Of a stretch of 64,000 bases of DNA, positions 6,565-21,783 are shown piece after piece. The stretch comes from Ruegeria arenilitoris (GTDB taxonomy: Bacteria > Pseudomonadota > Alphaproteobacteria > Rhodobacterales > Rhodobacteraceae): contig NZ_WPZO01000001.1 in NCBI RefSeq assembly GCF_013031355.1, positions 186,001 to 250,000 of the forward strand. Direction: 5' to 3'. A model generated the notes under the pieces. That model saw only the letters and a program-made list of their open reading frames with translations. It did not search any database and was not told where the DNA came from. The translations under genes were made by a program, and so were the position numbers. Positions within the stretch are counted from its first letter, which is position 1; every line of letters starts with the position of its first letter.

Positions 6565-7380
6565 ATGATCCGGAATATTGTTCGGGCAGCATTGGTAACC
6601 CTTGGCCTGATGGCAACGTCGGTCAGCGCCGAAGAGCCGTTCATCGTCGTGCAATCGACCACATCAACCCAGAACTCGGGCCTGTTGGATTACATCCTGC
6701 CGGGGTTTGAGGCCGAGACGGGCATCGACGTTCGTGTCGTCGCGGTTGGCACCGGGCAGGCGATCCGAAACGCCATCAATGGGGATGGTGACGTAATGCT
6801 GGTGCACGCCAAAGACGCAGAAGAGAAGTTCGTCGCGGATGGTTGGGGCGTTGAACGGTTTGACGTGATGTATAACGATTTCGTCCTGGTCGGGCCGAAA
6901 TCGGACCCGGCCAAGATTAAGGGCGGCGCGGATATCGTGACGGCCCTGAGTGCCGTTGCCAAGGCCGAAGCGCCCTTTGCCTCTCGCGGGGATGACAGCG
7001 GCACCCACAAGGCCGAGATGCGCCTGTGGGGTGCTGCCGGTTCCGATCCGACCGAGGCGTCGGGCGAATGGTACCGAGAGACGGGCTCGGGCATGGGGGC
7101 GACACTCAATGTGGCCAGCGGAATGGACGCCTACGTTTTGACGGATCGCGCCACGTGGCAGTCCTTCGGGAACAAAGGCAAACTCGAAGTTCTGGTCGAA
7201 GGCGACCCGCGTCTGTTCAACCAATACGGTGTCATCCTTGTGAACCCCGAAAAGCACCCACGTGTGCGGGCTGCGGCAGGGCAGAGGTTCATCGACTGGC
7301 TGACTGGTCCGGACGGGCAGGCGGCGATCGAGTCCTATAAGCTGGAAGGCCAGCAGCTGTTCTTTCCCAACGCCAAGTGA
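6565..7380 (+). CDS. tupA: Tungstate-binding periplasmic protein TupA
   Basis: This 271-residue secreted protein has a signal peptide ending in SVSA-EE and a PBP-like fold. The TTSTQNSGLL motif near the mature N-terminus is the characteristic TupA oxyanion loop (TTTS-type). Further family segments are NGDGDVMLVHAKDAEEKFV, SRGDDSGTHKAE and NQYGVILVNP. CGGAG lies upstream of the ATG. It completes tupBCA and ends 6 bases from the convergent regulator gene. Tungstate capture would supply the formate dehydrogenase encoded next door. The family call is strong; W versus Mo selectivity is known for TupA generally but not tested here. Confidence 0.92.
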   Translation: MIRNIVRAALVTLGLMATSVSAEEPFIVVQSTTSTQNSGLLDYILPGFEAETGIDVRVVAVGTGQAIRNAINGDGDVMLVHAKDAEEKFVADGWGVERFDVMYNDFVLVGPKSDPAKIKGGADIVTALSAVAKAEAPFASRGDDSGTHKAEMRLWGAAGSDPTEASGEWYRETGSGMGATLNVASGMDAYVLTDRATWQSFGNKGKLEVLVEGDPRLFNQYGVILVNPEKHPRVRAAAGQRFIDWLTGPDGQAAIESYKLEGQQLFFPNAK

Positions 7381-7386
7381 CCGAGG

Positions 7387-8259
7387 CTAACCGCTTGCGC
7401 CGTTGTGGTGGATCGTGCCCAGACCGGACAGATCATATCCACCAAATTCGGCGGCGCGGGTGGCAAAGCGGTCCGATTGCACGAAGCCAAGCAGTTTGAG
7501 CATCGGGTCATCGAAATAGGCCCGGCGCCAGATCGCAAGGTCCAGACGTTCGGAATGGGTCGGGGTAAAGCCCAAATCATAAAGGCCCGCCAAAGCACCC
7601 AGTCCGAACCCGGCCTCGGCCTTGCTGTCATGCAGCGCGATGGCCAGTTCCTCTTCGGTGCGGGCGCAGGTTGGCAGGGCGTCCAGATCCTCGCGCGTCA
7701 GGCCGTGGGTCTTGAGCTGTGCTTCGAACAACCGTTGGCTGGCGGCGCTGTCCTGCCGCAGGATCACCCGGCGCCCTTTCAGATCGGAAAAGCCCGCGAT
7801 GTCGGTGACACCGGGCGCAAGCAGCAACCCGCGCTGCCGTTGCGCGATTTCATACAGGACAACCGGGGCCTCACCCAGATTGTCGCGCAGGGCCTGCGTG
7901 TTGAACCCATCGTCTTCGTGAATATGCAACGCGGCGGCTTGCGCGGTTCGGTCCTTCAGACGGGTCAAGCCGTCGAACGAGCCATCGTAATACGTAGCCA
8001 GACCCGAGCCACTTTCGCGCAAGGCCCAGTCCAGCAGCGGGTCGTGGCTGCCGGCAACAATCGGGGGTAGGGGCGGTTCGGCCACCTGTGGCCCCGAACG
8101 TGAGGCGTTCAGCCAGGCAATGACCTCAGCGCGGGGAAACAGCAGCTTGCCCATGGCGCGGACACAGGGGACCTCGCCGGAAGAAGCCAGATCATAGGCC
8201 TTACGCTCGCCAATGCGCAGCAGGTCGGCCAGTTCTTTGGTTGTCAGATATTCGGACAT
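7387..8259 (-). CDS. Helix-turn-helix regulator with PBP-like oxyanion-sensing domain
   Basis: The first 60 or so residues are an excisionase/MerR-type winged HTH (LTTKELADLLRIGERKAYDL). The remaining ~220 residues resemble the PBP-like domain that is related to molybdate/tungstate-binding proteins; AGSHDPLLDWALRESGSGLA is the usual opening of that domain. The protein has no signal peptide, so it is cytosolic. It is the last gene of the formate dehydrogenase operon and faces tupA head to tail. A role as a tungstate/molybdate-responsive regulator of tup and/or fdh genes is inferred from domains and position. Its start follows the microprotein stop with no gap (TGAATG). Confidence 0.82.
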   Translation of the reverse strand: MSEYLTTKELADLLRIGERKAYDLASSGEVPCVRAMGKLLFPRAEVIAWLNASRSGPQVAEPPLPPIVAGSHDPLLDWALRESGSGLATYYDGSFDGLTRLKDRTAQAAALHIHEDDGFNTQALRDNLGEAPVVLYEIAQRQRGLLLAPGVTDIAGFSDLKGRRVILRQDSAASQRLFEAQLKTHGLTREDLDALPTCARTEEELAIALHDSKAEAGFGLGALAGLYDLGFTPTHSERLDLAIWRRAYFDDPMLKLLGFVQSDRFATRAAEFGGYDLSGLGTIHHNGASG

Positions 8260-8385
8260 TCAGTCGAGCCGCACCGCCGCACCAGAGCCCGCATCCGCGG
8301 CGCTGAACCCGATCTGTTGCAAAATGAAGGGCGCGGCGACGGTGATGACGACCATTGCGGCCACAGCGGCAAGAAAGGCTTTCAT
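8260..8385 (-). CDS. 41-residue membrane microprotein in the formate dehydrogenase operon
   Basis: This small ORF starts MKAFLAAVAAMVVITVAAPF and has one hydrophobic segment (about residues 3-21) and a polar tail ending AAVRLD. Its ATG overlaps the stop of the WD40-cytochrome gene (ATGA), a GGAGGAG lies 4 bases upstream, and its stop abuts the regulator start. Such double coupling argues that it is translated. It may be a small membrane or exported accessory peptide of the formate dehydrogenase electron chain; no function is recognised. Confidence 0.7.
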   Translation of the reverse strand: MKAFLAAVAAMVVITVAAPFILQQIGFSAADAGSGAAVRLD

Positions 8386-9659
8386 TGGTCTCCTCCGGTT
8401 CCGTTTTCCGGTGCTGTCGCACGGCGCAGAAAGGTGATCAGGTCGTCCCGGTCGCTGGCCTGCGTAATTCGCTGCATCGGCATCTTTGATCCCGGTATGT
8501 AGTGGTCTGGCCCCTGATCGAAAAGGGCGTTTATCGTTTCGTCATTCCAAATGATATCAGAGTCTTGCAGCGTGTCCGAGTAGAAATATCCCGGCAGCGT
8601 GCCAGCCTTGCGGCCAAAGATGCCATGCAGGGTCGGGCCCGCGCGCCTTTGCCCATTGGGCGTCAGGCTGTGACAGATCGAGCATTTGCGGGCAAACTGA
8701 CGTTCTCCGTTGCTCATCTTGTCGGGGTTCTTCAGAAAGCTGGGTTCGGCGGCGGCCATCTGCGCCTGATCGCCAAGCGCGGTGACGGGCCAGCTGTACA
8801 TTGCCTCGTCAAGACCGCCTGCGTGCAGATTCTGGCCGTCGGCAGAAAAGGCCAACGCCCAAACCGGCCCGCGCAAGGTGGCGCGGAAATCCTGCGCGAT
8901 ACGCCACTCGGCGGTGTCGATCACCATGATATATCCCTGACCATCTCCCACAGCCAACAGGCTGCGATTCGGGCTGAGCGCCAATGCCAGAATAGGGCGG
9001 CGGTCGAGGGTAAAGTCACGCACCTCCCCGGTGGTCAGGTCCAGAATGCGGGTGACGCCGTCCACCGCGCCATAGCCGATCCAATTGTCGCTGGCGTTCA
9101 GAACCAGTTCATTGATCCCAAATCCGTGTTCGATCAGTCGCTGGGTTTCCTGGCCGCTGGCCACATCCCACACCCGCAGCGTTCCATCCATGCCCGCCGA
9201 ATACAGCGTCGAACCATCCGGGGAAAACGTCACGGCGTTCACGCCGCTGCCCGCCTCAAGCACTTGCGGGGCCGAGCCATCCTCGGGCCACAGCCCTATG
9301 GTGCCGTCCCAACTGGCGGTGGCCACATGGGTTTTCGAGGCCGCAAGCCCCACGATCTTACCCTTGTGCTGGCCGACAATGGCTCCGCCCGGCCACCGAC
9401 GCAGGGTGAAATCATCTCCGGCCGAATAGACCGCTCGACCGTTGAATGCGACAGAGTTGACGGCAGCCTCGTGCCCCTCCAACCATTCTGGCTTGCGGTC
9501 AGACCACAGGCCGACGGAGTTGTCGAAACTGGCCGTGGCGATCCGGCCGTCGGGCGCAGCAGCGATCCCCATGATCGGCCCACCGTGGCCTTTGAGTGTA
9601 AAGAACTCGGCCAAAGCGGGCAGGGGAAACAGCGCCAGTGCCAGAGCCAGCCAGCGCAT
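8382..9659 (-). CDS. WD40-repeat protein fused to a c-type cytochrome
   Basis: A signal peptide (MRWLALALALFPLPALA) is followed by about seven WD40-like blades over residues 20-295; examples are ATASFDNSVGLW, ATASWDGTIGLW and YSAGMDGTLRVW. A cytochrome c domain follows with a single CSICH haem motif at residues 326-330 and the axial Met region in PGSKMPMQRI. The protein is 425 residues and periplasmic. It sits directly behind the cytochrome b subunit gene of formate dehydrogenase (stop TAG immediately followed by ATG), so it probably takes electrons from that complex or docks its partner. The domains are clear; the electron-transfer role is inferred. Confidence 0.88.
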   Translation of the reverse strand: MRWLALALALFPLPALAEFFTLKGHGGPIMGIAAAPDGRIATASFDNSVGLWSDRKPEWLEGHEAAVNSVAFNGRAVYSAGDDFTLRRWPGGAIVGQHKGKIVGLAASKTHVATASWDGTIGLWPEDGSAPQVLEAGSGVNAVTFSPDGSTLYSAGMDGTLRVWDVASGQETQRLIEHGFGINELVLNASDNWIGYGAVDGVTRILDLTTGEVRDFTLDRRPILALALSPNRSLLAVGDGQGYIMVIDTAEWRIAQDFRATLRGPVWALAFSADGQNLHAGGLDEAMYSWPVTALGDQAQMAAAEPSFLKNPDKMSNGERQFARKCSICHSLTPNGQRRAGPTLHGIFGRKAGTLPGYFYSDTLQDSDIIWNDETINALFDQGPDHYIPGSKMPMQRITQASDRDDLITFLRRATAPENGTGGDQ

Positions 9660-10862
9660 CTATTCAGCGGGAGAGGCCGCAGCCTTGTCGGCCTCTTTGT
9701 CCTGCACCTCTTCCAGCCATAGCGAATGGTGCTCGCGCGCCCATTGCTCTTCAACCTCGCCCGTGCCCATCGCATCAAACGCGCCTTCCATGCCGACCGA
9801 GCCTAGGTAGATATGGGCGATGATGATAGCGATGAACACATAGGCGACCATCACGTGCCAGACCTGCGCGTATTGCATCTCTTCCTGTGGCGACATCTGC
9901 GTTGGCAGGTTCAGGCCGAACATCTGTGGTATGCCGGTGGAATTGGCGATCTCGAAGGTTTTGGCAAACATCGGCAGTTCAAACGGGAACAGCAAGGACA
10001 GCCCCGACAAGCTGATCGAGACGCCCAGCAGGATGCAGGCCCAGAAGATCACTTTTTGGCCCGCGTTGAATTTTTTGGCGGGTGGGTGGCTGCCTTTGGT
10101 GAACAGTCCACCTCCTGCGGCCAACCACTTCAGGTCGATGCGGTTGGGAATGTTGTGTGCGATCCAGTTCACGGTGACGATGACCAGCCCCAGCATGAAG
10201 GACCAGGCCAGATTGTTGTGTAGCCATTTGCAGCCCTGGGCGATGGTCGCAAATCCTTCCTTGCCGAAGATCGGGATCAGGAAGTCACGGCCATAGAGAG
10301 TAAGCAACCCGGTCACCCCGAGCACCAGAAAAGACCCGGCGAACAGCCAGTGGCCGAACCGTTCAAAGCCATTGAAACGGGTGACGGTGCGACCGGTTTT
10401 CTCTCCGTCGATGCGGATTTTCCCGCGGATCAGGAAGAACAGAACGATGATGGCGACCATCCCGCCCAAAATGTATGTGCCGTATTCGCGCAGTGGCCCG
10501 GTGCGGAAGTTCAGCCACCACATGCCACCATCCTGAATCAGAACACCCGCTGCGGGCCCTTTGGAGGAAACGGTGGTATCCGCCGAGCCATATCGTATGG
10601 CACGGTAAACATCGCTGTCGGAGGCAACGCCGCGTGTACCCAGTTGCCCCAACAGGCCCTCGGCATTCCCCTGACCGGTGTTTTCCGAGCGATAGCTGTT
10701 GTCCACTTTCTCGCCGCGTTGCCGCGCGAGGATGTCCTCAAGCGTGGTCGCGCCCCCGGTTTGGGCTCGTTCTTCGGTTGTGGCTTCTGCTTCGGTAGAC
10801 TGCGCCAGGGCGGCGCCGGTTAACCCCAGGGCGAACAGGAATGCGATGAATAAGCGGAACAT
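9660..10862 (-). CDS. fdhC: Formate dehydrogenase gamma subunit (membrane cytochrome b)
   Basis: This 400-residue membrane subunit anchors formate dehydrogenase and passes electrons on. It has a signal peptide (MFRLFIAFLFALGLTGAALA), a polar periplasmic segment of about 110 residues, one helix, then a four-helix cytochrome b core. The core carries haem-ligand His residues in RFNGFERFGHWLFAG, HNNLAWSF and QVWHVMVAYVFIA. Its N-terminal extension compared with the ~220-residue E. coli subunit is common in alphaproteobacteria. ATG 10862 has GAGG upstream; the frame extends 13 residues further but without sense. A hairpin separates it from the beta-subunit gene. Confidence 0.92.
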   Translation of the reverse strand: MFRLFIAFLFALGLTGAALAQSTEAEATTEERAQTGGATTLEDILARQRGEKVDNSYRSENTGQGNAEGLLGQLGTRGVASDSDVYRAIRYGSADTTVSSKGPAAGVLIQDGGMWWLNFRTGPLREYGTYILGGMVAIIVLFFLIRGKIRIDGEKTGRTVTRFNGFERFGHWLFAGSFLVLGVTGLLTLYGRDFLIPIFGKEGFATIAQGCKWLHNNLAWSFMLGLVIVTVNWIAHNIPNRIDLKWLAAGGGLFTKGSHPPAKKFNAGQKVIFWACILLGVSISLSGLSLLFPFELPMFAKTFEIANSTGIPQMFGLNLPTQMSPQEEMQYAQVWHVMVAYVFIAIIIAHIYLGSVGMEGAFDAMGTGEVEEQWAREHHSLWLEEVQDKEADKAAASPAE

Positions 10863-10888
10863 CTGAACCTCGGTCAAAATTCCAAAGC

Positions 10889-10921
10889 AGGCGACCCGCA
10901 TGGGCGGGTCACCTGTTTTTT
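10889..10921 (+). terminator. Terminator-like hairpin between fdhB and fdhC, oriented on the + strand
   Basis: An 11-bp stem with one G-U/A-C-type variation (AGGCGACCCGC / GCGGGTCACCT, loop ATGG) is followed by GTTTTTT on the plus strand. The operon runs on the minus strand, where the same structure is an uninterrupted hairpin (one G-U pair) preceded by an A-run and lacking a T-run behind it. It could stabilise or process the fdh mRNA and block antisense transcription. Confidence 0.5.
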
Positions 10922-10932
10922 AAACAGACGGA

Positions 10933-11526
10933 TCAGCCGTCTTTCTGGTCGTAAGCCGTGCCCCAGCCCCACGCGCCCGAGCCAAACCCGCGCGCGACGA
11001 CACGCTCGCGGTAAATGGCCGAGACCACGTCGCCGTCACCGGCAAGCAGGGCCTTGGTGGAACACATCTCGGCGCAGAGGGGCAGTTTGCCCTCGGCGAT
11101 CCGGTTGCGACCATATTTGGCAAACTCTGCGGTCGAGTGCGTTTCCTCGGGGCCGCCAGCGCAGAAGGTACATTTGTCCATCTTGCCGCGCGATCCGAAG
11201 TTGCCCGCCTGCGGGTATTGCGGCGCGCCGAACGGGCACGCATAGAAACAATAGCCGCAGCCGATGCACAGGTCCTTGGAGTGCAGGACGACCCCTTCTT
11301 CGTTCTGATAGAAGCAGTCGACCGGGCACACCGCCATGCATGGCGCATCCGAACAATGCATACAGGCCACCGAGATCGAGCGTTCGCCCGGGTTGCCGTC
11401 ATTGATCGTCACCACCCTGCGGCGGTTGATGCCCCATGGGACCTCGTGCTCGTTCTTGCACGCGGTGACGCAGGCGTTGCATTCGATGCAGCGTTCAGCG
11501 TCGCAGAGAAACTTTGCTCTAGCCAT
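10933..11526 (-). CDS. fdhB: Formate dehydrogenase beta subunit (four [4Fe-4S] clusters)
   Basis: This 197-residue iron-sulfur subunit passes electrons between the alpha and gamma subunits. Four Cys groups are visible: [36 protein letters not shown] and CTFC with the late CAEMC. It lacks the C-terminal membrane helix of E. coli FdnH/FdoH and so resembles the short Wolinella-type subunit. A GGAGGA sequence lies upstream, and the gap to fdhA is 11 bases, so both are made together. The location follows the Tat-exported alpha subunit (periplasmic side), which is an inference. Confidence 0.93.
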
Positions 11527-11537
11527 TATCGTCCTCC

Positions 11538-14432
11538 TTACGCTGCCGAGATTTTGCAGAGAGTCGCTTTGGTCTCCTGCATCTGGGTCACTGAATCGTA
11601 GCCATAGGTCTGGGCGGTGTTGGAACTTTCACCCAAGACATAAGGATCGGCTCCTGCGGGGTATTTGTGCCGCAGGTCTTCACCTTGGAAATGGCCGCCA
11701 AAGTGGAATGGCATGAAGGCCACGCCGGCGCCGACCCTGTTGGTCAGCATCGCCATCACCTTGACCTTGCCGCCTTCGGGACCTTCGACCCAGACCTGTT
11801 GCCCGTCACGGATACCAAGGTTGTTGGCATCGCGCGGGTTGATCTCGACGAACATGTCCTGCTGCAGCTCGGCCAGCCACGGGTTCGACCGGGTTTCTTC
11901 GCCGCCGCCTTCATATTCGACCAGACGACCAGACGTGAGGATTATCGGGTAATCCTTTGAAAAGTCGTTCTTTTGGATCGAGGCATAAAGGGTGGGCAGG
12001 CGATAGGCCTGACGGTCCTCGTAGGTCGGATAGTCCTCCACCAGATCGCGCCGGTTGGTATAGAGCGGTTCGCGATGCAGTGGAATCGGATCCGGGAAGG
12101 TCCAGACGACCGCGCGGGCTTTGGCGTTCCCGAAGGGCGCGCAGCCATGCTCGATCGCAACCCGCTGGATGCCGCCTGACAGGTCGGTTTTCCAGTTGGT
12201 CTCTGGTCCCGCAACGGCGTCGATGGCGGCACGTTCTTCGGCCGTCAGGTCACCGTCCCAACCAAGGTCCATCAGCATCTGCATCGTGAATTCGGGATAG
12301 CCATCCTGAATTTCCGATCCAGCGCTATAGACCCCTTCGGCCAGCAGGTTGTCGCCATCACGTTCCACGCCAAAGCGCGCGCGGAAGGTCAGGCCGCCTT
12401 CGGCCACCGGTTTGGACATGTCATAGAGGTTTGGTGTCCCTGTATGACCCATTTCCGGCGTTCCCCAGCAGGGCCAGGGTAGGCCATAGTACTCGCCGTC
12501 GTTTGGTCCACCAATGGCTTGCAGCGTGGTTCTGTCGAACGTGTGCTGGTTGGCCATGTGGCTTTTCAGACGTTCTGGCGACTGACCGGTATAGCCGATG
12601 GTCCAGAGGCCCCTGTTGAACTCACGCGTGATGCTTTCAACATTGGGGGTTTCGGGGTCGTCCATCTCGATATTGCGGAACAGCCGATCCGCCCAGCCGA
12701 ACTTGTTGGCGAATTTGGCCATGATGACCTCGTCCGGCAGGCTTTCGAACAGCGGTTCTACCACCTTGTCGCGCCACTGCAGCGAACGGTTCGACGCCGT
12801 GACCGAGCCACGGGTTTCGAACTGCGTACAGGCGGGCAACAGGTAGACGCCATCGGTGCGGTCATGCAGAACGGCCGAGACGGTGGGATACGGGTCGATT
12901 ACGACCAGCATGTCCAGCTTCTCCATCGCCGTTTTCATCTCCGGGCCTCGCGTTTGCGAGTTCGGAGCGTGACCCCACAGAACCATGGCGCGGACGTTGT
13001 TGTCCTGATCCATGTTAGCCGGGTCTTCCAGAACACCGTCGATCCAGCGCGAGACCGGGATGCCGCGCTCGTTCATTAGCGGCTTGTCCTTGCCTTCCTT
13101 GTCCTTGATCGTGGCGAACTGACCTTTCAGCCAATCCAGATCTTCACCCCAGACGCGGCTCCAATGGCCCCATGCGCCGTTCGACAACCCGTAATAGCCG
13201 GGCAGGGTGTGGGACAGGACACCAAGGTCCGTCGCGCCCTGCACGTTGTCATGGCCACGGAAGATGTTGGTGCCACCACCCGAGGTGCCCATGTTGCCCA
13301 AGGCAAGCTGAAGCACGCAGTAAGCACGGGTGTTGTTGTTGCCATTGGTGTGCTGTGTGCCGCCCATACACCAGATCACGGTGCCGGGACGGTTGTTGGC
13401 CATGGTGCGTGCAACACGTTTTAGCTGCGATCCCGGAGTACCGGTGACACGTTCGACCTCATCCGGGTTCCACTTGGCAACCTCTTCACGGATCTGGTCC
13501 ATACCCCAGACGCGGGTGCGGATGAACTCTTTGTCCTCCCAGCCGTTGTCGAAGATGTGCCACAGGATTCCCCAGATCAAAGCAACGTCTGTGCCGGGGC
13601 GGAACCGGACATATTCATCCGCATGCGCCGCGGTGCGCGTGAAGCGCGGGTCGCAGACGATCAGCGGGGCGTTGTTCTGCTCTTTCGCGCGCAGAACGTG
13701 CAGCAGCGAAACGGGATGGGCCTCGGCCGGGTTGCCGCCGATGATGAAGATGGCCCGAGAGTTATGGATGTCATTGTACGAGTTGGTCATGGCGCCGTAG
13801 CCCCATGTATTCGCAACACCCGCAACCGTGGTTGAGTGGCAGATACGGGCCTGATGGTCCACGTTGTTCGTGCCCCAGTAGGCGGCGAACTTGCGGAACA
13901 GATAGGCCTGTTCGTTGTTGTGCTTCGCCGAACCCAGCCAGTACACGCTGTCCGGTCCGGATTCCTCGCGGATGCTCATCATGCCGTCGCCGATCTCGTT
14001 GATCGCCTCTTCCCAGCTGATGCGCTTCCACTCGCCACCTTCCTTTTTCATCGGGTATTTCAGGCGGCGTTCGCCATGGGCATGCTCGCGAACCGAGGCC
14101 CCCTTGGCGCAGTGTGCACCCAGATTAAACGGGCTGTCCCATCCGGGTTCCTGTCCGATCCAGACGCCGTTCTGCACTTCGGCGACAACGGTACAGCCGA
14201 CCGAACAGTGGGTGCATACGGATTTGATGTTTTCGACGGCGGTGTTGGCCGCTGTTTGGGCGCTGGCTGGCGTCACGGTTCCACCCGTGGCGCTGATCGC
14301 GGCGAGGCCGCCGATCGTCAGGCCCGAGCCACGCAGGAATGCGCGGCGATCGACGGTTTTCTCGCCGATTTGGGACAGGATACTTGTCCGCTGGGGGCGT
14401 CTCGCAACCCCGTTGGTCTTTTTCCTTAACAT
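11538..14432 (-). CDS. fdhA: Formate dehydrogenase alpha subunit (Mo/W-bis-MGD catalytic subunit)
   Basis: This 964-residue subunit oxidises formate to CO2. A Tat signal ([10 protein letters not shown], twin Arg at residues 29-30) directs it to the periplasm. One [4Fe-4S] site is formed by Cys73, Cys76, Cys80 (CTHCSVGC) and Cys108. The active-site pair is Cys198-His199 in ARICHSTT, so this is the cysteine and not the selenocysteine form; no in-frame TGA is needed. The C-terminal molybdopterin-dinucleotide-binding domain starts near residue 830 ([21 protein letters not shown] in part). Neighbouring tupBCA suggests tungsten as the metal, though molybdenum cannot be excluded from sequence. Confidence 0.95.
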
Positions 14433-14811: not shown

Positions 14812-15423
14812 TTATGCCGCCGTCATTCGGAACGCCTCCCGCTCTATCTCCATGAATACCCGACCGGCGGTGCCGACCGAGGCATAGAGAACCGAGTTTT
14901 CAGCAGCTTCCAAATCCGAATAGAAATGCGTGGCCCAGGGGCCGATATGCTTGTTCCAGAACGCTTTCTGATCCTCGAGCGAAGCGGGCGCGCCAAAGCG
15001 GCCTACAATCATGCCCGCCATCATCTCCATCAGCGATGCGATGTTGTCTTCGGGTTCGAACACGTTCTGCGCCCGAGTGATGCCGCGAGCGGCCATGTCG
15101 TTGCGCAGCTGGGCCAGAGGTTTCTCGTTCAGGAATCCGGTCAGGTAGAAACTGGCATAGGGCAGCAACTCACCGCGTCCCAACCCGATGAACAGGGCGT
15201 TGAACTCACGTTCCGCCGCCGCGGGTTTGGTCACCTTTGCCACTCGCGCCATGGCCTGAATGGCCTGACCCAAGTCAGTCTCATCCCCGGTCAGACCAGC
15301 CACCTGATCCAGCAGCAACTGATCCGGCGGTGCTGCCAGCATCAGTCCGAGGAAGTTGTAGAAATCCGCGCGCAGTCGATCCTCGGCCGAAACATCCAGA
15401 TTTTGCGCGTTGCTTGCGGCCAT
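14812..15423 (-). CDS. TorD/DmsD-family molybdoenzyme chaperone
   Basis: This 203-residue all-helical cytosolic protein matches the TorD family. It has an early RADFYNFLGLML segment, the central EREFNALFIGLGRGELLPYAS segment (the E..x.LF.G...... P..S pattern), and the late EPEDNIASLMEMMAGMIVG with HIGPWA. Such chaperones bind the Tat signal of the catalytic subunit and help cofactor insertion, so FdhA is the likely client. ATG 15423 has AAGGAT upstream overlapping the preceding stop; a TTG 15 bases upstream is the longer alternative. Confidence 0.88.
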   Translation of the reverse strand: MAASNAQNLDVSAEDRLRADFYNFLGLMLAAPPDQLLLDQVAGLTGDETDLGQAIQAMARVAKVTKPAAAEREFNALFIGLGRGELLPYASFYLTGFLNEKPLAQLRNDMAARGITRAQNVFEPEDNIASLMEMMAGMIVGRFGAPASLEDQKAFWNKHIGPWATHFYSDLEAAENSVLYASVGTAGRVFMEIEREAFRMTAA

Positions 15424-15427
15424 GGGG

Positions 15428-15988
15428 TTATCCTTCAAACTCGAATTTCATGCGGCGTGGGGTGGGGCGCAGGTCGACCTCTTCGGGGGCTTCTGCCTCG
15501 GCTGTCACAACCGGTTCAGGCGTCGGTTCATCGATCACTTCTGGCTCCGGTTCTTCGGTGACGGGATCGGGCTCACTCTCTTCGGACTCTGCTGCCAAGG
15601 CTTCGATATGGGCCAACATACCCTTGCCGACTTGATAGGCGGTGGGGATGTTTTCGATCACGCAGGCAGCGTCGGTATAGTCCTCGCCATAGTCAACCAG
15701 CCCGTCCACATTGGCCAACACGGGGTTCAGCCGCCACAACCTCCGCAGCGCGCGTCGGCGCAGACGGTCGGGCACCGCCTTGGCCATGAAACCCGAGACG
15801 TCATCCCCAACCTGCAACTGATCGGGGTCGGGCAGGTTGAACTCGGCCAGTATCTCGGCATCCGACTTTTCTTCCAGTTCAGCCTGCTGCGCTACGATGG
15901 CTTGTTCCTCGGCCGCGATAACCTCAGCTTCGGCCTCGGCCTGAACAGCGGCCTTGCGTCGGGACCAGAAATCGCGGGCTTGCGTCAT
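15428..15988 (-). CDS. DUF3306 family protein
   Basis: This 186-residue soluble protein opens with FWSRRKAA and carries the DUF3306 core: AEFNLPDPDQL, FMAKAVPDRLRRRALRRLW and DGLVDYGEDYTD. The C-terminal 60 residues are Glu/Pro-rich and low complexity. DUF3306 proteins occur with DUF3305 and formate dehydrogenase genes; their function is not established. The gene overlaps the DUF3305 gene by 4 bases and ends 4 bases before the TorD-type start, so the three are co-translated. Confidence 0.88.
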   Translation of the reverse strand: MTQARDFWSRRKAAVQAEAEAEVIAAEEQAIVAQQAELEEKSDAEILAEFNLPDPDQLQVGDDVSGFMAKAVPDRLRRRALRRLWRLNPVLANVDGLVDYGEDYTDAACVIENIPTAYQVGKGMLAHIEALAAESEESEPDPVTEEPEPEVIDEPTPEPVVTAEAEAPEEVDLRPTPRRMKFEFEG

Positions 15989-16539
15989 TGCACGATCCTC
16001 CGCGGGGCGCGGTAGACATCCGAGGCCTGACGGATACGGGCATCGCCCTTGCCGTCCTCGACCAGATCTGTCCGCTTCTTGTCGCGGCGCCGTTTGACAA
16101 AGACCTCATCGCGGTGGTGCTCCAGCGCGAAATCCCGAACCCAGGCGATCAACCCTTCGGTCATGGGGATTTTTTCGACGATCTCTTCCCCGGTGTCGGC
16201 ATAGTCCTGCCCCTCGAACGGGGACGCCGTGATCAGCACCGCATCCATAGGCCGTTCGCCATCCAGAGCGTCACGCAAAATAAGGTAGATTGAGGGCTGG
16301 CCGTCTGAGAGGTTGACCATGTAGGCCTCGGTCTCATCTGCCCATAATGTAAGCGGGAGGGTCGCCGCGTGATACTCCACAGCTTCACCCTCGCGGCGCA
16401 GTTCCTGCCAGTCGGCAGGTCCAGCACCGGGCAAAACGGCAACTGCGCGCCAGTTCCATTTCGCCCAGCGGGTTACACCGGGTGTTTTGCGCACGACGAC
16501 GCCGATTGGCATTTCAATCTGGCTTGCGGCCTTCGCCAC
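15985..16539 (-). CDS. DUF3305 family protein, first gene of the formate dehydrogenase operon
   Basis: This 184-residue soluble protein shows the DUF3305 features: MPIGVVVRKTPGVTRWAKW near the N-terminus, then HAATLPLTLWADETEAYMVN and QPSIYLILRD. A basic C-terminus (KRRRDKKR) follows. It begins the minus-strand operon; GGAGGAC lies before the ATG. DUF3305 is found beside formate dehydrogenase and ferredoxin genes, but the role (maturation is often suspected) is unknown. Confidence 0.88.
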   Translation of the reverse strand: MAKAASQIEMPIGVVVRKTPGVTRWAKWNWRAVAVLPGAGPADWQELRREGEAVEYHAATLPLTLWADETEAYMVNLSDGQPSIYLILRDALDGERPMDAVLITASPFEGQDYADTGEEIVEKIPMTEGLIAWVRDFALEHHRDEVFVKRRRDKKRTDLVEDGKGDARIRQASDVYRAPRRIVQ

Positions 16540-16770: not shown

Positions 16771-18723
16771 ATGGGCACAAAAATTCTGCTTTGCGACTGC
16801 GCGGGGACGCAAGAACTGGACGCCGAGAATATCGCGTCGGCCTGCGGTACTGCGTGTTCCCGGGTTCATACGGCCCTGTGTACTTCTGAGCTGGAAACTG
16901 CGGCCTCGCTAATGCAGGACGGGGACGCCGTGATTGCCTGCGGGCAGGAGCAGGAGGTGTTTGGTGCACTTGCCGAAGAGCTGAATATCGAAACGCCGGG
17001 GTTTGTGGATCTGCGCGACCGGGCCGGTTGGTCCGAGCAGGGCGCGGATGCAGCGCCCAAGATGGCCGCTCTGGCCGCCGAGGCGTTGCTGCCGCAACCG
17101 ATCACAACCAGCGTGGACGTCTTCAGCGAGGGCACCTGTTTCATCATCGGACCGGGGGAGCTGTGTTTCGATCTGGCCGAACGTCTGGCGACGACGCTGG
17201 CGGTTACGGTGCTGGTCACCGATGACGCCCAGCCGATCTCGCGGGCCTTTGACGTGGTGCGCGGGCGGGTACGGTCGCTGACCGGTGCGCTGGGCGGGTT
17301 CACGCTGCGGCTGGACGGCTTGCAGCAGATCGAACCGGGCGGGCGTGGCGCTTTTGCTTGGTCCACGCCGCGCGACGGGGCGAAATCGGCCTGTGATATC
17401 GTGATCGATCTGACCGGCGGAACACCGTTCGTGCAAGCCCCCGCCAAGCGTGAGGGGTATTTGCGCGCCGATCCCAAGGATGCAGTCGCAGTCGAACGAC
17501 TGGCATTCGAGGCGGTGCAGTTAGTCGGGACCTTCGAAAAACCGCTATACGTGCGGATGGAAGAGACGCTCTGCGCCCATTCCCGCGCAGAACAGGTGGC
17601 CTGCACCAACTGTCTGGATATCTGCCCAACGGGTGCGATCACTCCGGCTGGCGAGCATGTGACCATCGACCCAATGATCTGCGCCGGGTGCGGCGAATGC
17701 GCGGCGGTGTGCCCGTCGACCGCGATCACCTACGAAGACCCGCCGGTCTCGGCCCTGTTGTCTCGAATGCACATTCTTGCGCGCACCTATCGGCGTGCGG
17801 GAGGGACCGCCCCACGGTTGTTGGTGCATGACGCCCACGGGGCAGAGATGATCCGGCTGGCCGCCAGGTTCGGGCGCGGTCTGCCCGCGGATGTCGTTCC
17901 GCTGGAGTTGAACGTGATCTCGGGCTTTGGCCATGCCGAGATGTTAGCCGCACTGGCGCACGGCTTTGCCCGGGTTGATGTGCTGCTGGCTCCAACCACA
18001 GAACGTGACGCGCTGGACCGGGAACTGGCACTGGCGCAGGCGATTGCCGGGCCGGGCAAGGTGGGGCTGATGGATGAGGTCGACCCGGAAGCGATGGCGG
18101 ATCTGCTATACGCGCAGGACGTCCCGCCACCGCTGGCCGATCCGGTGCTGCCCTTGGGCAACCGCAGACAAATCGCGCGACTGTCGGCGCAGGCGCTGAA
18201 CCCAAAGGCGGAGGCTCCGTTGCCCTTGCCTGAAAACGCGCCTTATGGGGTGGTGGCTGTGAATACGGATGCCTGCACGCTGTGCCTCAGCTGTGTCTCG
18301 CTCTGCCCGTCGGGGGCTTTGGTTGATAACCCGGACAAGCCGCAGCTGAACTTTCAGCAGGACGCCTGTCTGCAATGCGGGCTGTGCAAGGGCATCTGCC
18401 CCGAGGATGCCATTACTCTGGTCCCGCAGCTTGACCTCAGCGATGCGGCCCTGTCTCAGCAGGTGCTGAATGAAGAGGAACCCTTTGCCTGTGTCGAATG
18501 CGGCGCCCTGTTTGGCGTGAAATCCACTATCGAGCGGATCATGGATAAACTCGCAGGTACGCATCCGATGTTTGCCACCTCGGACAAGGCGCGGATGATC
18601 CAGATGTGCGACAATTGTCGTGTTAACGCGCAGTTCCAGCAGCAGGACAACCCGTTCCAGTCCAATCCCAAGCCCAAGGTGGTTACGACAGAGGACTATT
18701 TCTCAAAACGCAAGGATCACTGA
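16771..18723 (+). CDS. Multi-cluster 4Fe-4S ferredoxin-like protein linked to formate dehydrogenase
   Basis: This 650-residue cytosolic protein has two pairs of [4Fe-4S] motifs: CTNCLDICPTGAI and CAGCGECAAVCPS (about residues 276-315), and CTLCLSCVSLCPSGAL and CLQCGLCKGICPEDAI (about 501-545). An N-terminal region holds further Cys residues, and a C-terminal CVECGALFG / CDNCR zinc- or iron-like site is present. It is divergent from the DUF3305-fdh operon, and this ferredoxin type commonly travels with DUF3305/DUF3306. It may move electrons for cofactor maturation or link cytosolic redox pools to the enzyme; that is inference. Its stop overlaps the convergent chimera gene by 7 bases. Confidence 0.88.
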   Translation: MGTKILLCDCAGTQELDAENIASACGTACSRVHTALCTSELETAASLMQDGDAVIACGQEQEVFGALAEELNIETPGFVDLRDRAGWSEQGADAAPKMAALAAEALLPQPITTSVDVFSEGTCFIIGPGELCFDLAERLATTLAVTVLVTDDAQPISRAFDVVRGRVRSLTGALGGFTLRLDGLQQIEPGGRGAFAWSTPRDGAKSACDIVIDLTGGTPFVQAPAKREGYLRADPKDAVAVERLAFEAVQLVGTFEKPLYVRMEETLCAHSRAEQVACTNCLDICPTGAITPAGEHVTIDPMICAGCGECAAVCPSTAITYEDPPVSALLSRMHILARTYRRAGGTAPRLLVHDAHGAEMIRLAARFGRGLPADVVPLELNVISGFGHAEMLAALAHGFARVDVLLAPTTERDALDRELALAQAIAGPGKVGLMDEVDPEAMADLLYAQDVPPPLADPVLPLGNRRQIARLSAQALNPKAEAPLPLPENAPYGVVAVNTDACTLCLSCVSLCPSGALVDNPDKPQLNFQQDACLQCGLCKGICPEDAITLVPQLDLSDAALSQQVLNEEEPFACVECGALFGVKSTIERIMDKLAGTHPMFATSDKARMIQMCDNCRVNAQFQQQDNPFQSNPKPKVVTTEDYFSKRKDH

Positions 18724-19445
18724 AGCTGTAGCGGTGCGCCCAGATCGGCCGCCTTGATGACCGAGACGAAGGCAAGGATGGCTTCCAGGTCTTCAAATGT
18801 CATTTCGACCGGATGAATGGGCGAGGGGCGCGCGGGATCAAAAGGCGGGGTCAGCCCGTCGATCTGGGTGAAGGCGGGATGGGGATTCAGCGCAAAGAAG
18901 GCCTCGAACCGTTCCGACCAGTCGGGCATCGCGCGCAGCACGGCAAAAGAGGGGGTCGAGCCCAATCCGTTCATGCGGTTCTTTGGCCCGATCACGTGGC
19001 AGCGTCCGCAATGGGTCATCGACAGTTCCTCACCTCGGGCGGTGTCACCGTCGATCACCGTGTCGGTTTGCGCCGCCTTGACCTCGAAACGGGCAGAGAA
19101 GGGCGCGCCGTGTTCAGGGGTAAAGCTTTCGACCGTGTTCTTGCCGATATCGGACAACAACCAATCGCGGAACCGTTCGTGCCTGGCGTCGCCTTCGATC
19201 CGCAGGTGATAGATCACTCCGTCGCGGGTAAAGACCGGATCGCCCGGCGGCTCGGTTTCCAGCACTAAAACACCCCCATCATCCGCAATAACGCGTATCC
19301 CGGTCTTGAGAGAGAAGCGTGGAAGGATATGTTGCAACAGACCAGAGTCTTTCACATCGGCCGGGGCGGCCAGACCCAATGCCTCCTGCGACCAAGAGGG
19401 ACTGGTAGAGAGCGTCAGGCTCAGGCACAAGAGGACAAAGCGCAT
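18717..19445 (-). CDS. Secreted chimera: shrunken TupA-like domain fused to cytochrome c
   Basis: A signal peptide (to about residue 19) is followed by DSGLLQHILPRFSLKTGIRV, which matches the TupA segment NSGLLDYILPGFEAETGIDV encoded at 6565-7380. A second block (GDARHERFRDWLLSDIGKNT, then VESF) matches the TupA C-terminus. The roughly 150 residues between these blocks in TupA are missing, as is the TTTS oxyanion loop. From about residue 130 on there is a cytochrome c domain with CGRCH and a late Met (HPVEMTFED). The gene is convergent with the ferredoxin gene and lies inside the formate dehydrogenase neighbourhood. It probably cannot bind tungstate; an electron-carrier role is inferred. Confidence 0.75.
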   Translation of the reverse strand: MRFVLLCLSLTLSTSPSWSQEALGLAAPADVKDSGLLQHILPRFSLKTGIRVIADDGGVLVLETEPPGDPVFTRDGVIYHLRIEGDARHERFRDWLLSDIGKNTVESFTPEHGAPFSARFEVKAAQTDTVIDGDTARGEELSMTHCGRCHVIGPKNRMNGLGSTPSFAVLRAMPDWSERFEAFFALNPHPAFTQIDGLTPPFDPARPSPIHPVEMTFEDLEAILAFVSVIKAADLGAPLQLQ

Positions 19446-19509: not shown

Positions 19510-19557
19510 ATGAAACGCAACCTCGTGGTGGGGCAAGTCAAAGGGGTAATAGCATGA
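19510..19557 (+). CDS. Possible 15-codon leader ORF before mrp/apbC
   Basis: The reading frame MKRNLVVGQVKGVIA has GGAG about 9 bases before its ATG, and its TGA overlaps the ATG of the following gene (ATGA). This arrangement would couple translation of the two. It could equally be chance in a 108-base intergenic gap; no peptide function is proposed. Confidence 0.3.
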   Translation: MKRNLVVGQVKGVIA

Positions 19558-20615
19558 GTGTTCGTGACGCGGTTCTGGCGAACCTGAAGAAGATCACTGA
19601 TCCTGTTTCCGGACAGGATATCGTCAGCGCAGGTGTGGTGCGTGCGCTGAACGTCGAAGGCGACACGGTGCGCTTTGTGCTGGAGATTGACCCGAAGCAC
19701 GCCGAGCAGATGGAGCCGGTTCGCGCGACTGCCGAGAAAGCCGCGCAGATGGTTGACGGGGTGGCCAAGGTCTCGGCCATGTTGACCGCGCATTCCGACA
19801 AGGCACCGCCGGATCTGAAGCCTAAACCCAAGCCCTCGCAAACCGGTCCGCAGGCCGTTCCGGGTGTGGACCGGATTATTGCCGTAGCTTCGGGCAAGGG
19901 CGGTGTCGGCAAATCCACCGTTTCGGCCAACCTCGCCTGTGCCTTGGCGGCTGAGGGCCGTCGTGTGGGTCTGTTGGACGCCGACGTCTACGGCCCGTCG
20001 CAGCCCCGGATGCTGGGTGTCTCGGGCCGTCCGGCCAGCCCGGATGGCAAGACCATCCTGCCGCTGCGCAATCACGGCGTCACCATGATGTCGATGGGTT
20101 TGATGACCAATGAAGGGCAGGCGGTTGTTTGGCGTGGCCCGATGCTGATGGGCGCGCTGCAGCAGATGATGAATCAGGTGCAATGGGGCGCGCTGGACGT
20201 GCTGATCGTTGACCTGCCACCGGGAACCGGCGACGTGCAGCTGACGCTGAGCCAGAAGTTCAAGGTGGACGGCGCCATTGTTGTTTCCACCCCGCAGGAC
20301 GTGGCCCTGATCGACGCTCGCAAGGGGATCGACATGTTCAACCAGCTCAAGACGCCCATCGTTGGTATGATCGAGAACATGTCCACCCATATCTGTTCCA
20401 ACTGCGGGCACGAGGAGCATGTGTTCGGTCATGGCGGTGTGAAGTCCGAGGCCGAGGCGCTGGGCGTACCGCTGCTGGGGGAAATCCCTCTGCACCTGGA
20501 TATCCGGGTCGCGGCCGATGGCGGTGCCCCGATCGTTGTCAGTAAACCCGACAGCCCGCAGGCCGACGCATTCCGCAAGATCGCCCGCGACATGATCGCC
20601 AAGGGCAACGCATGA
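19554..20615 (+). CDS. apbC: Mrp/ApbC-family iron-sulfur cluster carrier ATPase
   Basis: This 353-residue cytosolic P-loop ATPase has an N-terminal MIP18/DUF59 domain (DPVSGQDIVSAGVVRALNV), a Pro/Lys linker around residue 90, then the deviant Walker A ASGKGGVGKST. Its other motifs are the LDADVYGPSQP loop and the CSNCG pair (CxxC) that holds a bridging [4Fe-4S] cluster. It likely donates clusters to iron-sulfur proteins, and the many clusters of the neighbouring formate dehydrogenase and ferredoxin are plausible clients. AAGGGG precedes the start. It overlaps the next gene by 4 bases. Confidence 0.93.
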   Translation: MSVRDAVLANLKKITDPVSGQDIVSAGVVRALNVEGDTVRFVLEIDPKHAEQMEPVRATAEKAAQMVDGVAKVSAMLTAHSDKAPPDLKPKPKPSQTGPQAVPGVDRIIAVASGKGGVGKSTVSANLACALAAEGRRVGLLDADVYGPSQPRMLGVSGRPASPDGKTILPLRNHGVTMMSMGLMTNEGQAVVWRGPMLMGALQQMMNQVQWGALDVLIVDLPPGTGDVQLTLSQKFKVDGAIVVSTPQDVALIDARKGIDMFNQLKTPIVGMIENMSTHICSNCGHEEHVFGHGGVKSEAEALGVPLLGEIPLHLDIRVAADGGAPIVVSKPDSPQADAFRKIARDMIAKGNA

Positions 20616-21304
20616 GCCAGCCTGTCTTCCCCCCGTTGCTGTCGGGCCATCCGGTGCAGGGTGGGGAAGACCCGTTCGAACGCGCACAGTCCATGGCCGC
20701 GCTGGGCTGCGATGCCGGGTCGGTCGTATACAATATTCAGGCCGACCGGCTGCGGGTGGCGATTGTCTTCGCCCCCGAGGTTCCGTTGCAGGATGCAATA
20801 GCGATGTTACCCCTCTGCGCCGTCGGATTCCAGAACGCGCTGGGCGCTCTGGCTCCGCCCGAAGTTGCGGTGCACCTGGGCTGGGAGGGGTTGATCTGTG
20901 TGAACGGCGCGAAATGCGGTGCGTTCCGTGTTGCAGCGTCCGCAGCAACTGTGGATGAAGAGCCCGACTGGCTGGTGGTCGGATGGGAACTGGCGCTAAT
21001 GCAAACCAGCGCGGCACCGGGTGAAACTCCGGATGTGACGGCCCTCTATGATGAAGGCTGCGCCGAGGTGTCGCCGGTGCAACTGGTCGAAAGCTGGTCG
21101 CGGCATATGCTGACCTGGCTCAACCGCTGGCAGGAAGACGGCAATGCGCCCTTGCACGGTGAATGGATGGGCTTGCTGCGCGGTGTCGGTGAACCCTGTG
21201 ACACGGGCGTTTTTCTGGGCACGGACGAACGGTTCGGGATGCTGATCCGCGACGGTGCCGAAACCCACCTGCGCCCCCTGACCGAATTGTTGGAGAACGG
21301 ATGA
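20612..21304 (+). CDS. Biotin/lipoate protein ligase-like protein with C-terminal DUF4444
   Basis: This 230-residue protein has a ligase-like core of about 180 residues, including WEGLICVNGAKCGAFRVA, which corresponds to the KxxxPND-VNGKKVAGI region of BirA/LplA enzymes. The PND motif and the N-terminal GRGR..R nucleotide loop are not visible, so catalysis is doubtful. The C-terminal ~45 residues (GEWMGLLRGVGEPCDTGVF onwards) match DUF4444. It is coupled to mrp (ATGA) and to the next gene. This family is common in Rhodobacterales beside formate dehydrogenase genes; its substrate is unknown. Confidence 0.8.
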   Translation: MSQPVFPPLLSGHPVQGGEDPFERAQSMAALGCDAGSVVYNIQADRLRVAIVFAPEVPLQDAIAMLPLCAVGFQNALGALAPPEVAVHLGWEGLICVNGAKCGAFRVAASAATVDEEPDWLVVGWELALMQTSAAPGETPDVTALYDEGCAEVSPVQLVESWSRHMLTWLNRWQEDGNAPLHGEWMGLLRGVGEPCDTGVFLGTDERFGMLIRDGAETHLRPLTELLENG

Positions 21305-21783
21305 TGAAACTGGCGCGCGCGATCCATTTCGACGAAAGCGACATCAACGTCTTCCATTCCCCGGCCCGGACCGGAGAATGGTGCATCTCGGGCGGGTTCG
21401 AGTTTTCGAACTGGGGGCAGGCCGATCTGGAAGGCAAGGCTCGGCAGGCCTTTTCGAACGGCTGGCTGGGGGTCGAGACATTCGGACGGGTGACCTTTGT
21501 AGCCGTCACACAGATCGAGCAATCGGAACTAGAACAGATCGCCCAAAACCTGGCCGAGCATTTTGTGCAATTCTACGGCGCGCCTTCGGTCGAGGCCGCG
21601 TTAGGAGTGGCGCAGACCGAGATCGCCCACATGGCCGAACTGTGTGAAGAGCACGCGCCCAATACTCTGCTGACCGTTGCGCGCGAATTGTCCGAAAGTG
21701 GCGTGCACGAGGCATTTCGCATCATCACCCCTCAGGAAACGCAGCTTGAGGCGCTGGCCGTTCACGGATCATTGGACGATTAA
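21301..21783 (+). CDS. DUF6505 family protein
   Basis: This 160-residue soluble protein contains FDESDINVFHSPARTGEWCI and GFEFSNWGQADLEGKARQAF, as in the DUF6505 family of alphaproteobacteria. The rest is a compact alpha/beta sequence with an amphipathic middle (ELEQIAQNLAEHFVQFYGAPS). It starts inside the previous stop (ATGATGA; ATG 21304 is an alternative) and closes the mrp-ligase-DUF6505 operon. No function is known. Its 3' end overlaps the convergent flavin reductase gene by 4 bases. Confidence 0.78.
   Translation: MMKLARAIHFDESDINVFHSPARTGEWCISGGFEFSNWGQADLEGKARQAFSNGWLGVETFGRVTFVAVTQIEQSELEQIAQNLAEHFVQFYGAPSVEAALGVAQTEIAHMAELCEEHAPNTLLTVARELSESGVHEAFRIITPQETQLEALAVHGSLDD

Follow-up and report, generated by a model that had tools for sequence, protein, structure and literature searches.

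The gene at 18717..19445 (minus strand) of a 64,000-nucleotide stretch of Ruegeria arenilitoris DNA (contig NZ_WPZO01000001.1, positions 186,001 to 250,000; hereafter the window) is an open reading frame encoding 242 residues, with its ATG at 19445-19443, in which part of the tungstate-binding protein TupA is joined to a predicted c-type cytochrome. Sequence comparison indicates that residues 20-121 of the encoded protein, referred to here as the half-TupA cytochrome, are derived from lobe A of TupA with loss of the ligand motif. The reading preferred here, which is given about an even chance of being correct, is that this lobe, lacking lobe B and the TTS motif, serves as a docking arm by which a haem of low potential is held to the FDH3-type formate dehydrogenase (FDH) encoded in the same locus.

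Origin of the N-terminal domain

An earlier note, made from the letters of the window, had recognised both ends of a TupA in the N-terminal half of the protein, and this was confirmed by BLASTP and by profile-profile comparison. Against the TupA encoded in the window, BLASTP gave a colinear match of residues 1-54 with TupA 6-60 (E 3e-6) and a second of residues 62-111 with TupA 207-261 (E 7e-5, as a single comparison), and when the protein's own genome was searched at E<=1, TupA (E 0.04) was the sole match besides the protein itself. Comparison with TupA by hhalign returned a probability of 95.1, an E of 3.2e-8 and a score of 47.1 for the N-part, and 96.9, 1.3e-10 and 61.6 for the C-part. Among 40 column shuffles of TupA, the highest scores against the two parts were 18.0 and 19.0; reversed TupA scored 11.6 and 11.8, and the remaining binding proteins encoded in the window (NMT1-like, TRAP and HTH plus PBP_like) 10-16. 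A profile search of residues ~20-120, the region on which the note's argument depended, thus found the relation to TupA. The domain (19083..19388, minus strand, as are all features of this protein) shares with TupA (PDB 5my5, 3lr1 and 3muq) the lobe-A fold and both terminal sequence blocks, and the C-terminal TupA helix block RFRDWLLSDIGKNTVESF (residues 91-108, 19122..19175) was located by BLASTP and profile comparison alike.

It is scarcely credible that the likeness is a coincidence, or the mark of a general binding-protein fold alone. Such an explanation would suit the Foldseek result, which taken on its own gave an E of 0.014 for TupA likeness, and the Pfam results, since neither PF12849 nor any other Pfam binding-protein model was reported for the half-TupA cytochrome and, of 95 relatives, only a few had such a match. 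It was rejected on the profile scores set against the shuffled, reversed and other-binder controls, on the structure prediction, and on the full-length protein P0189 and the longer relative L196, both described below.

The note had further described the middle of TupA, together with the TTTS ligand loop, as missing. The loss of the loop was borne out: the T, T and S of the TTS motif are each present in 71/71 plain TupAs that could be placed, the motif was found at its TupA place in 0/100 relatives of the half-TupA cytochrome, and residues 28-30 (19356..19364) read PAD here. What the protein has lost of TupA is more accurately lobe B and the hinge, together with some of lobe A. In D. alaskensis TupA, lobe A comprises A2-R76 and Y201-E251 and lobe B A91-Q200, and the ligands are the TTTS motif and the lobe-B residues R118, T124 and D170 (PMC5517513). 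The BLASTP alignment jumps from TupA 60 to 207 at a junction near residues 55-62 (19260..19283), leaving TupA positions ~61-206 without a counterpart; the two-lobed cleft is therefore absent, and R118, T124 and D170 are gone with lobe B. Relative to TupA, then, the protein is without lobe B and TTS and has a cytochrome c appended.

The real tupA does lie about 11 kb away, as the note had stated, with a gap of ~11.3 kb. This gene (6565..7380, plus strand) matches PF12849 at 1.9e-46 and encodes an intact tungstate-binding protein with TTS and RGDDSGT present. Its score against NF041772, the NCBIfam TupA model (E 9.7e-67, 225 bits), is well under the cut-off of 400, and it is called TupA despite this because of its ligand motifs and its tup operon. 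A strict TupA-ligand pattern matched 50/81 TupAs, a fraction that is no measure of the number of functional TupAs.

A full-length intermediate and the history of the fusion

A search with a relative having a longer middle recovered P0189, a protein of 393 residues. It consists of an entire TupA, in which TTS, RGDDSGT and a DRGT segment all stand at their usual places, and of the same cytochrome C-terminal to it. In the TupA part of P0189 the family signature reads RFALK, found in 0/200 plain TupAs, and P0189 ranked first among 199 and 201 proteins when the end profiles of the shrunken family, two in number, were used for scoring; these two results argue against a chance assembly join of a plain TupA. 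L196 (279 residues) keeps more of lobe A than the half-TupA cytochrome and was aligned unbroken to TupA profile positions 11-95. Basal rows of the family had longer middles (median 113, n=19, versus 107, n=81; p 1.9e-4), which is treated as a hint since the basal set was chosen from the tree, the rows are related to one another and the crown also contains five of the longer forms.

Homologues of the half-TupA cytochrome numbered 2028 proteins at E<=1e-3, and those near relatives that were named came mostly from Ruegeria. In a class-wide sample, 82/385 genomes matched at E<=1e-5. Full-length matches were confined to the host's family and one further family (G656 and G579), ten genomes matched in the cytochrome half only (E<=3e-13), and most other rows were TupA or short, weak cytochrome matches. 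A phylum sample gave matches in 10/398 genomes at E<=1e-10, none of them outside the class. Within the host's taxonomic family, 295 genomes were sampled, nearly one per genus; 118 matched at E<=0.01, and after 13 with just TupA or other weak matches had been left out, 105 gene-bearing genomes and their loci remained. Homologues with an unrelated N-terminus were looked for as well, and another domain replaced the lobe in 0/105 loci. The lobe is absent in two of these, G004 and G054, whose cytochromes lie on contigs where the fetched stretch contains no FDH genes, and in ten cytochromes outside the family, G389 included.

Five small stand-alone cytochromes c from other alphaproteobacterial families (G594, G671, G400, G295 and G389) are homologous to the cytochrome half (E 9e-32 to 2e-56), have the same His189 and lie beside FDH-locus genes; unlike the half-TupA cytochrome they have no TupA lobe, and their open frames are of 131-162 residues. 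Overall, FDH-locus genes were found near the stand-alone cytochrome in 7/10 fetched loci (G594, G400, G669, G671, G389, G295 and G479) and were not found within the fetched stretch at G372, G476 and G525. Of the twelve stand-alone cytochromes, nine were included in the trees and in the alignment that covers such forms (A3); G669, G479 and G525 were left out. Six, all from other families, form one side of the tree (support 100/95), and the cytochrome is likely, from these comparisons, to be older than the fusion. G389, G004 and G054 fall inside the fused group, and the lobe has therefore likely been lost again in them; the larger tree forces such a loss, whereas the smaller, with few well-supported branches, does not.

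At loci L255 (10946-11800) and L258 (7623-8528), a tupA with TTS adjoins the stand-alone cytochrome, with one gene between, presumably ModE-like, and a gene for a likely multicopper oxidase farther along; in the 20 kb fetched for each locus, neither tupB nor tupC had a match. A pre-fusion state is only suggested by this arrangement (G594 and G671), since the two genes are divergent with another gene between.

The history would then have begun with a stand-alone FDH-locus cytochrome of Alphaproteobacteria to whose N-terminus a whole TupA was added, after which lobe B would have been lost, lobe A trimmed and a new surface, including R43 and K47, fixed. A more specific version, in which a whole metal-uptake receptor was fused to the electron carrier of a metal-using enzyme, acting first as a tungstate-gated cytochrome and later keeping one lobe as a redox docking arm, is offered tentatively, with the odds against it; the gated first stage is suggested by the counterparts of TupA ligand motifs retained in P0189.

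The cytochrome domain

As the note had stated, a CGRCH cytochrome c follows the TupA-like half. The domain occupies residues 133-242 (18720..19049), with CGRCH at residues 146-150 (18996..19010) and C146, C149 and H150 invariant in both the family alignment (A2, 95 rows) and A3. The similarity to class I c-type cytochromes (PF00034, including PsbV/cytochrome c550) consists of CxxCH and weak sequence and fold matches. The half-TupA cytochrome falls just under the Pfam cut-off (21.0 bits against 21.3), and 85/95 relatives match the model at E<=1. It differs from that class in having no conserved Met. The best Met position was occupied in 66/95 rows, so that a distal Met ligand is not indicated, and His189 (18879..18881), 39 residues past the haem-motif histidine, is present in 95/95 rows of A2 and 59/59 of A3, the nine stand-alone cytochromes included. 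Given this invariant histidine, the single CxxCH and the lack of a conserved Met, His150/His189 ligation and a low potential are predicted. PsbV/cytochrome c550 is itself bis-His. A low-potential bis-His haem would suit a carrier operating near formate oxidation.

Conservation of the lobe

The family signature PRFSLK occupies residues 42-47 (19305..19322); its general pattern, PRFx[LF]K, occurs in none of 200 plain TupAs. P42, R43, F44 and W95 are present in 95/95 rows of A2, and K47 and G101 in 94/95; R43 and K47, near-invariant in the family, are not TupA heritage. The 100 lobe-profile loci behind A2 were chosen with the pattern P[RE]F.[FLM][KR], and invariance at positions 42-47 is for that reason partly built in. 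Of the other five loci of the 105, L203 and L204 are without the lobe, and L139, L158 and L170 have it but failed the motif searches; by eye, these three read PRVSLK, VRFTLK and PRFSLK, R43 being kept in each. Median ratios of nonsynonymous to synonymous substitution (dN/dS) were 0.117 for the lobe, 0.042 for the cytochrome, 0.414 for the linker (measured over residues 121-132; the variable linker itself is residues 122-132, 19050..19082) and 0.466 for the signal peptide, among 37 Ruegeria-type genes (39 gathered, two dropped for length, pairs limited by divergence). The low ratio and the near-invariant non-TupA positions R43 and K47 indicate that the lobe is under selection, less tightly than the cytochrome.

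These data bear on a different explanation, considered unlikely, in which the lobe is a stabilising or spacer relic of an old fusion that has no partner, and the cytochrome alone matters. The stretch from PRF to the haem varies from 98 to 137 residues, the lobe evolves faster than the cytochrome, and G389, G004 and G054 do without it. However, the lobe's dN/dS is far under that of linker and signal peptide, and P42, R43, F44, W95, K47 and G101 are invariant or nearly so in the motif-selected rows, R43 and K47 among them not stemming from TupA.

Association with the formate dehydrogenase locus

The half-TupA cytochrome gene is convergent, with a 7-base overlap, with a gene for a 4Fe-4S protein of 650 residues (16771..18723, plus strand). 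Beyond the latter, all on the minus strand, come DUF3305 (15985-16539; model match below cut-off), a gene taken to be DUF3306 (15428-15988; no model match), a TorD-type chaperone (14812-15438; TorD model match below cut-off), fdhA for the catalytic subunit (11538..14432; TIGR01591 485 bits, under the cut-off of 666), fdhB for the FDH3 beta subunit (10933..11526; NF038355 344 bits, above 240), fdhC for the gamma subunit, a cytochrome b (9660..10901; TIGR01583 138 bits, above 116), and a WD40-cytochrome c gene, past which lie the tup genes (5081, 5808 and tupA at 6565). The 4Fe-4S, DUF3305 and DUF3306 genes are present in 101/105 loci, in constant orientation relative to the half-TupA cytochrome gene, and the chaperone in 99/105; the protein is thus encoded with fdhABC and their accessory genes, as an FDH3-associated protein. 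The survey of co-occurrence with fdhA proposed in the note found, among the 295 genomes and ignoring kinship, the half-TupA cytochrome in 105, fdhA (E<=1e-100) in 138 and both in 103. The two gene-bearing genomes without fdhA (G019 and G158) have the locus on short contigs that still show the 4Fe-4S, DUF3305 and DUF3306 neighbours.

These neighbours resemble maturation genes, and XoxJ (see below) provides a precedent for a second explanation, that the protein is a maturation or activation factor of the dehydrogenase, concerned with cofactor loading or reductive activation and not a routine electron acceptor. The tail match of DUF3305 to the MobA-DUF3305 model NF011058 (79.5 bits, cut-off 820) hints at a role for that gene in cofactor delivery. 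Maturation of Tat-exported molybdoenzymes is as a rule cytoplasmic, whereas the half-TupA cytochrome has a predicted Sec signal peptide (residues 1-19, 19389..19445), marked by a helix at residues 2-12 in the AlphaFold2 (AF2) model and an AxA-like site that recurs in 72/100 relatives; a lipobox was found in 0/100. FDH loci without the gene also exist, and a maturation role is accordingly judged rather improbable.

Less probable still is that the lobe continues to dock on the tungstate permease TupB, as would be expected of lobe A in TupA, with the haem reporting redox state to, or competing at, the importer. A tupA is present in 103/105 gene-bearing genomes and lies inside the fetched stretch in 51/105 loci, at a median distance of 3.3 kb. 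Nevertheless, among fdhA genomes tupA is equally common with the gene (101/103) and without it (34/35), so that the association is no tighter than FDH accounts for; the link to the FDH locus is the closer one, and G227 and G290 have the gene but no tupA match.

Three other observations concern the neighbourhood. The gene directly after fdhC (8382-9659, minus strand) encodes a WD40 propeller (PF00400 2.3e-35) that ends in a cytochrome c domain (PF00034 6.3e-9), a second adaptor-cytochrome fusion of the same gene row, seen in 16/105 loci within the fetched stretch. Convergent with tupA is a gene for an HTH_17 plus PBP_like protein (7387-8259, minus strand), possibly an oxyanion-responsive regulator judging by its domains, found in 7/105 loci (fetched stretch) and in two loci of other families. 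On the other side, at 19554-21783 (plus strand), mrp/apbC and two downstream genes (20612 and 21301) recur in 96, 98 and 95 of 105 loci and seem unrelated to FDH.

Proposed function

The note's proposal that an oxyanion binder was recycled for an electron carrier of the dehydrogenase fared well in its first part: TupA as the front domain of an FDH-locus cytochrome is supported by the profiles, the structure prediction, P0189, synteny (101/105) and fdhA (103/105). Its second part, the lobe as a docking or scaffold module, is still the best explanation, argued from analogy, purifying selection and the conserved non-TupA residues R43 and K47. The protein would be exported to the periplasm, haem would be attached at CGRCH and ligated by His150 and His189 at low potential, and the lobe would dock this haem on FdhA/FdhB, so that the cytochrome might take up electrons from the iron-sulfur chain of the enzyme and pass them on to the pool of c-type cytochromes in the periplasm.

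A docking role of the lobe is proposed because in XoxG/XoxJ and MxaG/MxaJ one periplasmic dehydrogenase is served both by a binding-protein fold, for which an activating role has been suggested, and by a cytochrome c of its own (PMC7391723). On methanol with lanthanum, losing xoxJ or xoxG had the same effect as losing xoxF1 xoxF2 (PMC7391723). Those systems comprise two separate proteins and an unrelated enzyme, in contrast to the single chain and single lobe here, the arrangement being similar in principle. XoxJ is reported to be two-lobed and ligand-free. Desulfovibrio formate dehydrogenases use the cytochrome partners c3 and c553, so that a c-type carrier is tied to a W/Mo formate dehydrogenase there too; these are other cytochrome types and are not known to have a binding-protein domain.

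Several points weigh against docking on the dehydrogenase or the history proposed for it. The AF2 model has a pTM of 0.66 and does not fix the relative arrangement of the two domains, and the lobe has the higher dN/dS. A bare cytochrome holds the same FDH-locus slot in G389, where docking by the lobe is therefore not essential. The co-occurrence with fdhA was counted without phylogenetic correction, and 35/138 fdhA genomes are without the gene; a profile search of 20 such loci, with most of the locus present, found TupA itself alone, so FDH can work without the half-TupA cytochrome. P0189 comes from metagenome data as one protein on a contig of 6680 bases, and the best 120 rows obtained with it as query include no second of its kind; its cytochrome groups, with weak support, with G004 and G057 (rows L203 and L201; 98/52 and 97/78) and is not basal. 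Being non-basal and found once, it could be an independent, later second fusion.

Pfam and NCBIfam returned no model for a TupA-cytochrome fusion, the source databases name the relatives cytochrome or hypothetical protein, and the literature searches, not all of which were aimed at the fusion, found none by title or abstract start. The parts are known; as far as could be seen, there is no earlier description of the combination, of the half-lobe or of the full-length intermediate. The family offers a rare case in which living sequences make it possible to trace how a binding protein with two lobes was reduced to a single one, and one in which the receptor's metal may equal the enzyme's metal. 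It also provides a testable partner for FDH3-type formate dehydrogenase and a one-chain parallel to XoxJ/XoxG. If the docking reading is true, a receptor for metal uptake would have become a component of the electron path of a metal enzyme; under the more specific and less probable version of the history given above, half a periplasmic binding protein would constitute a new kind of electron-transfer module.
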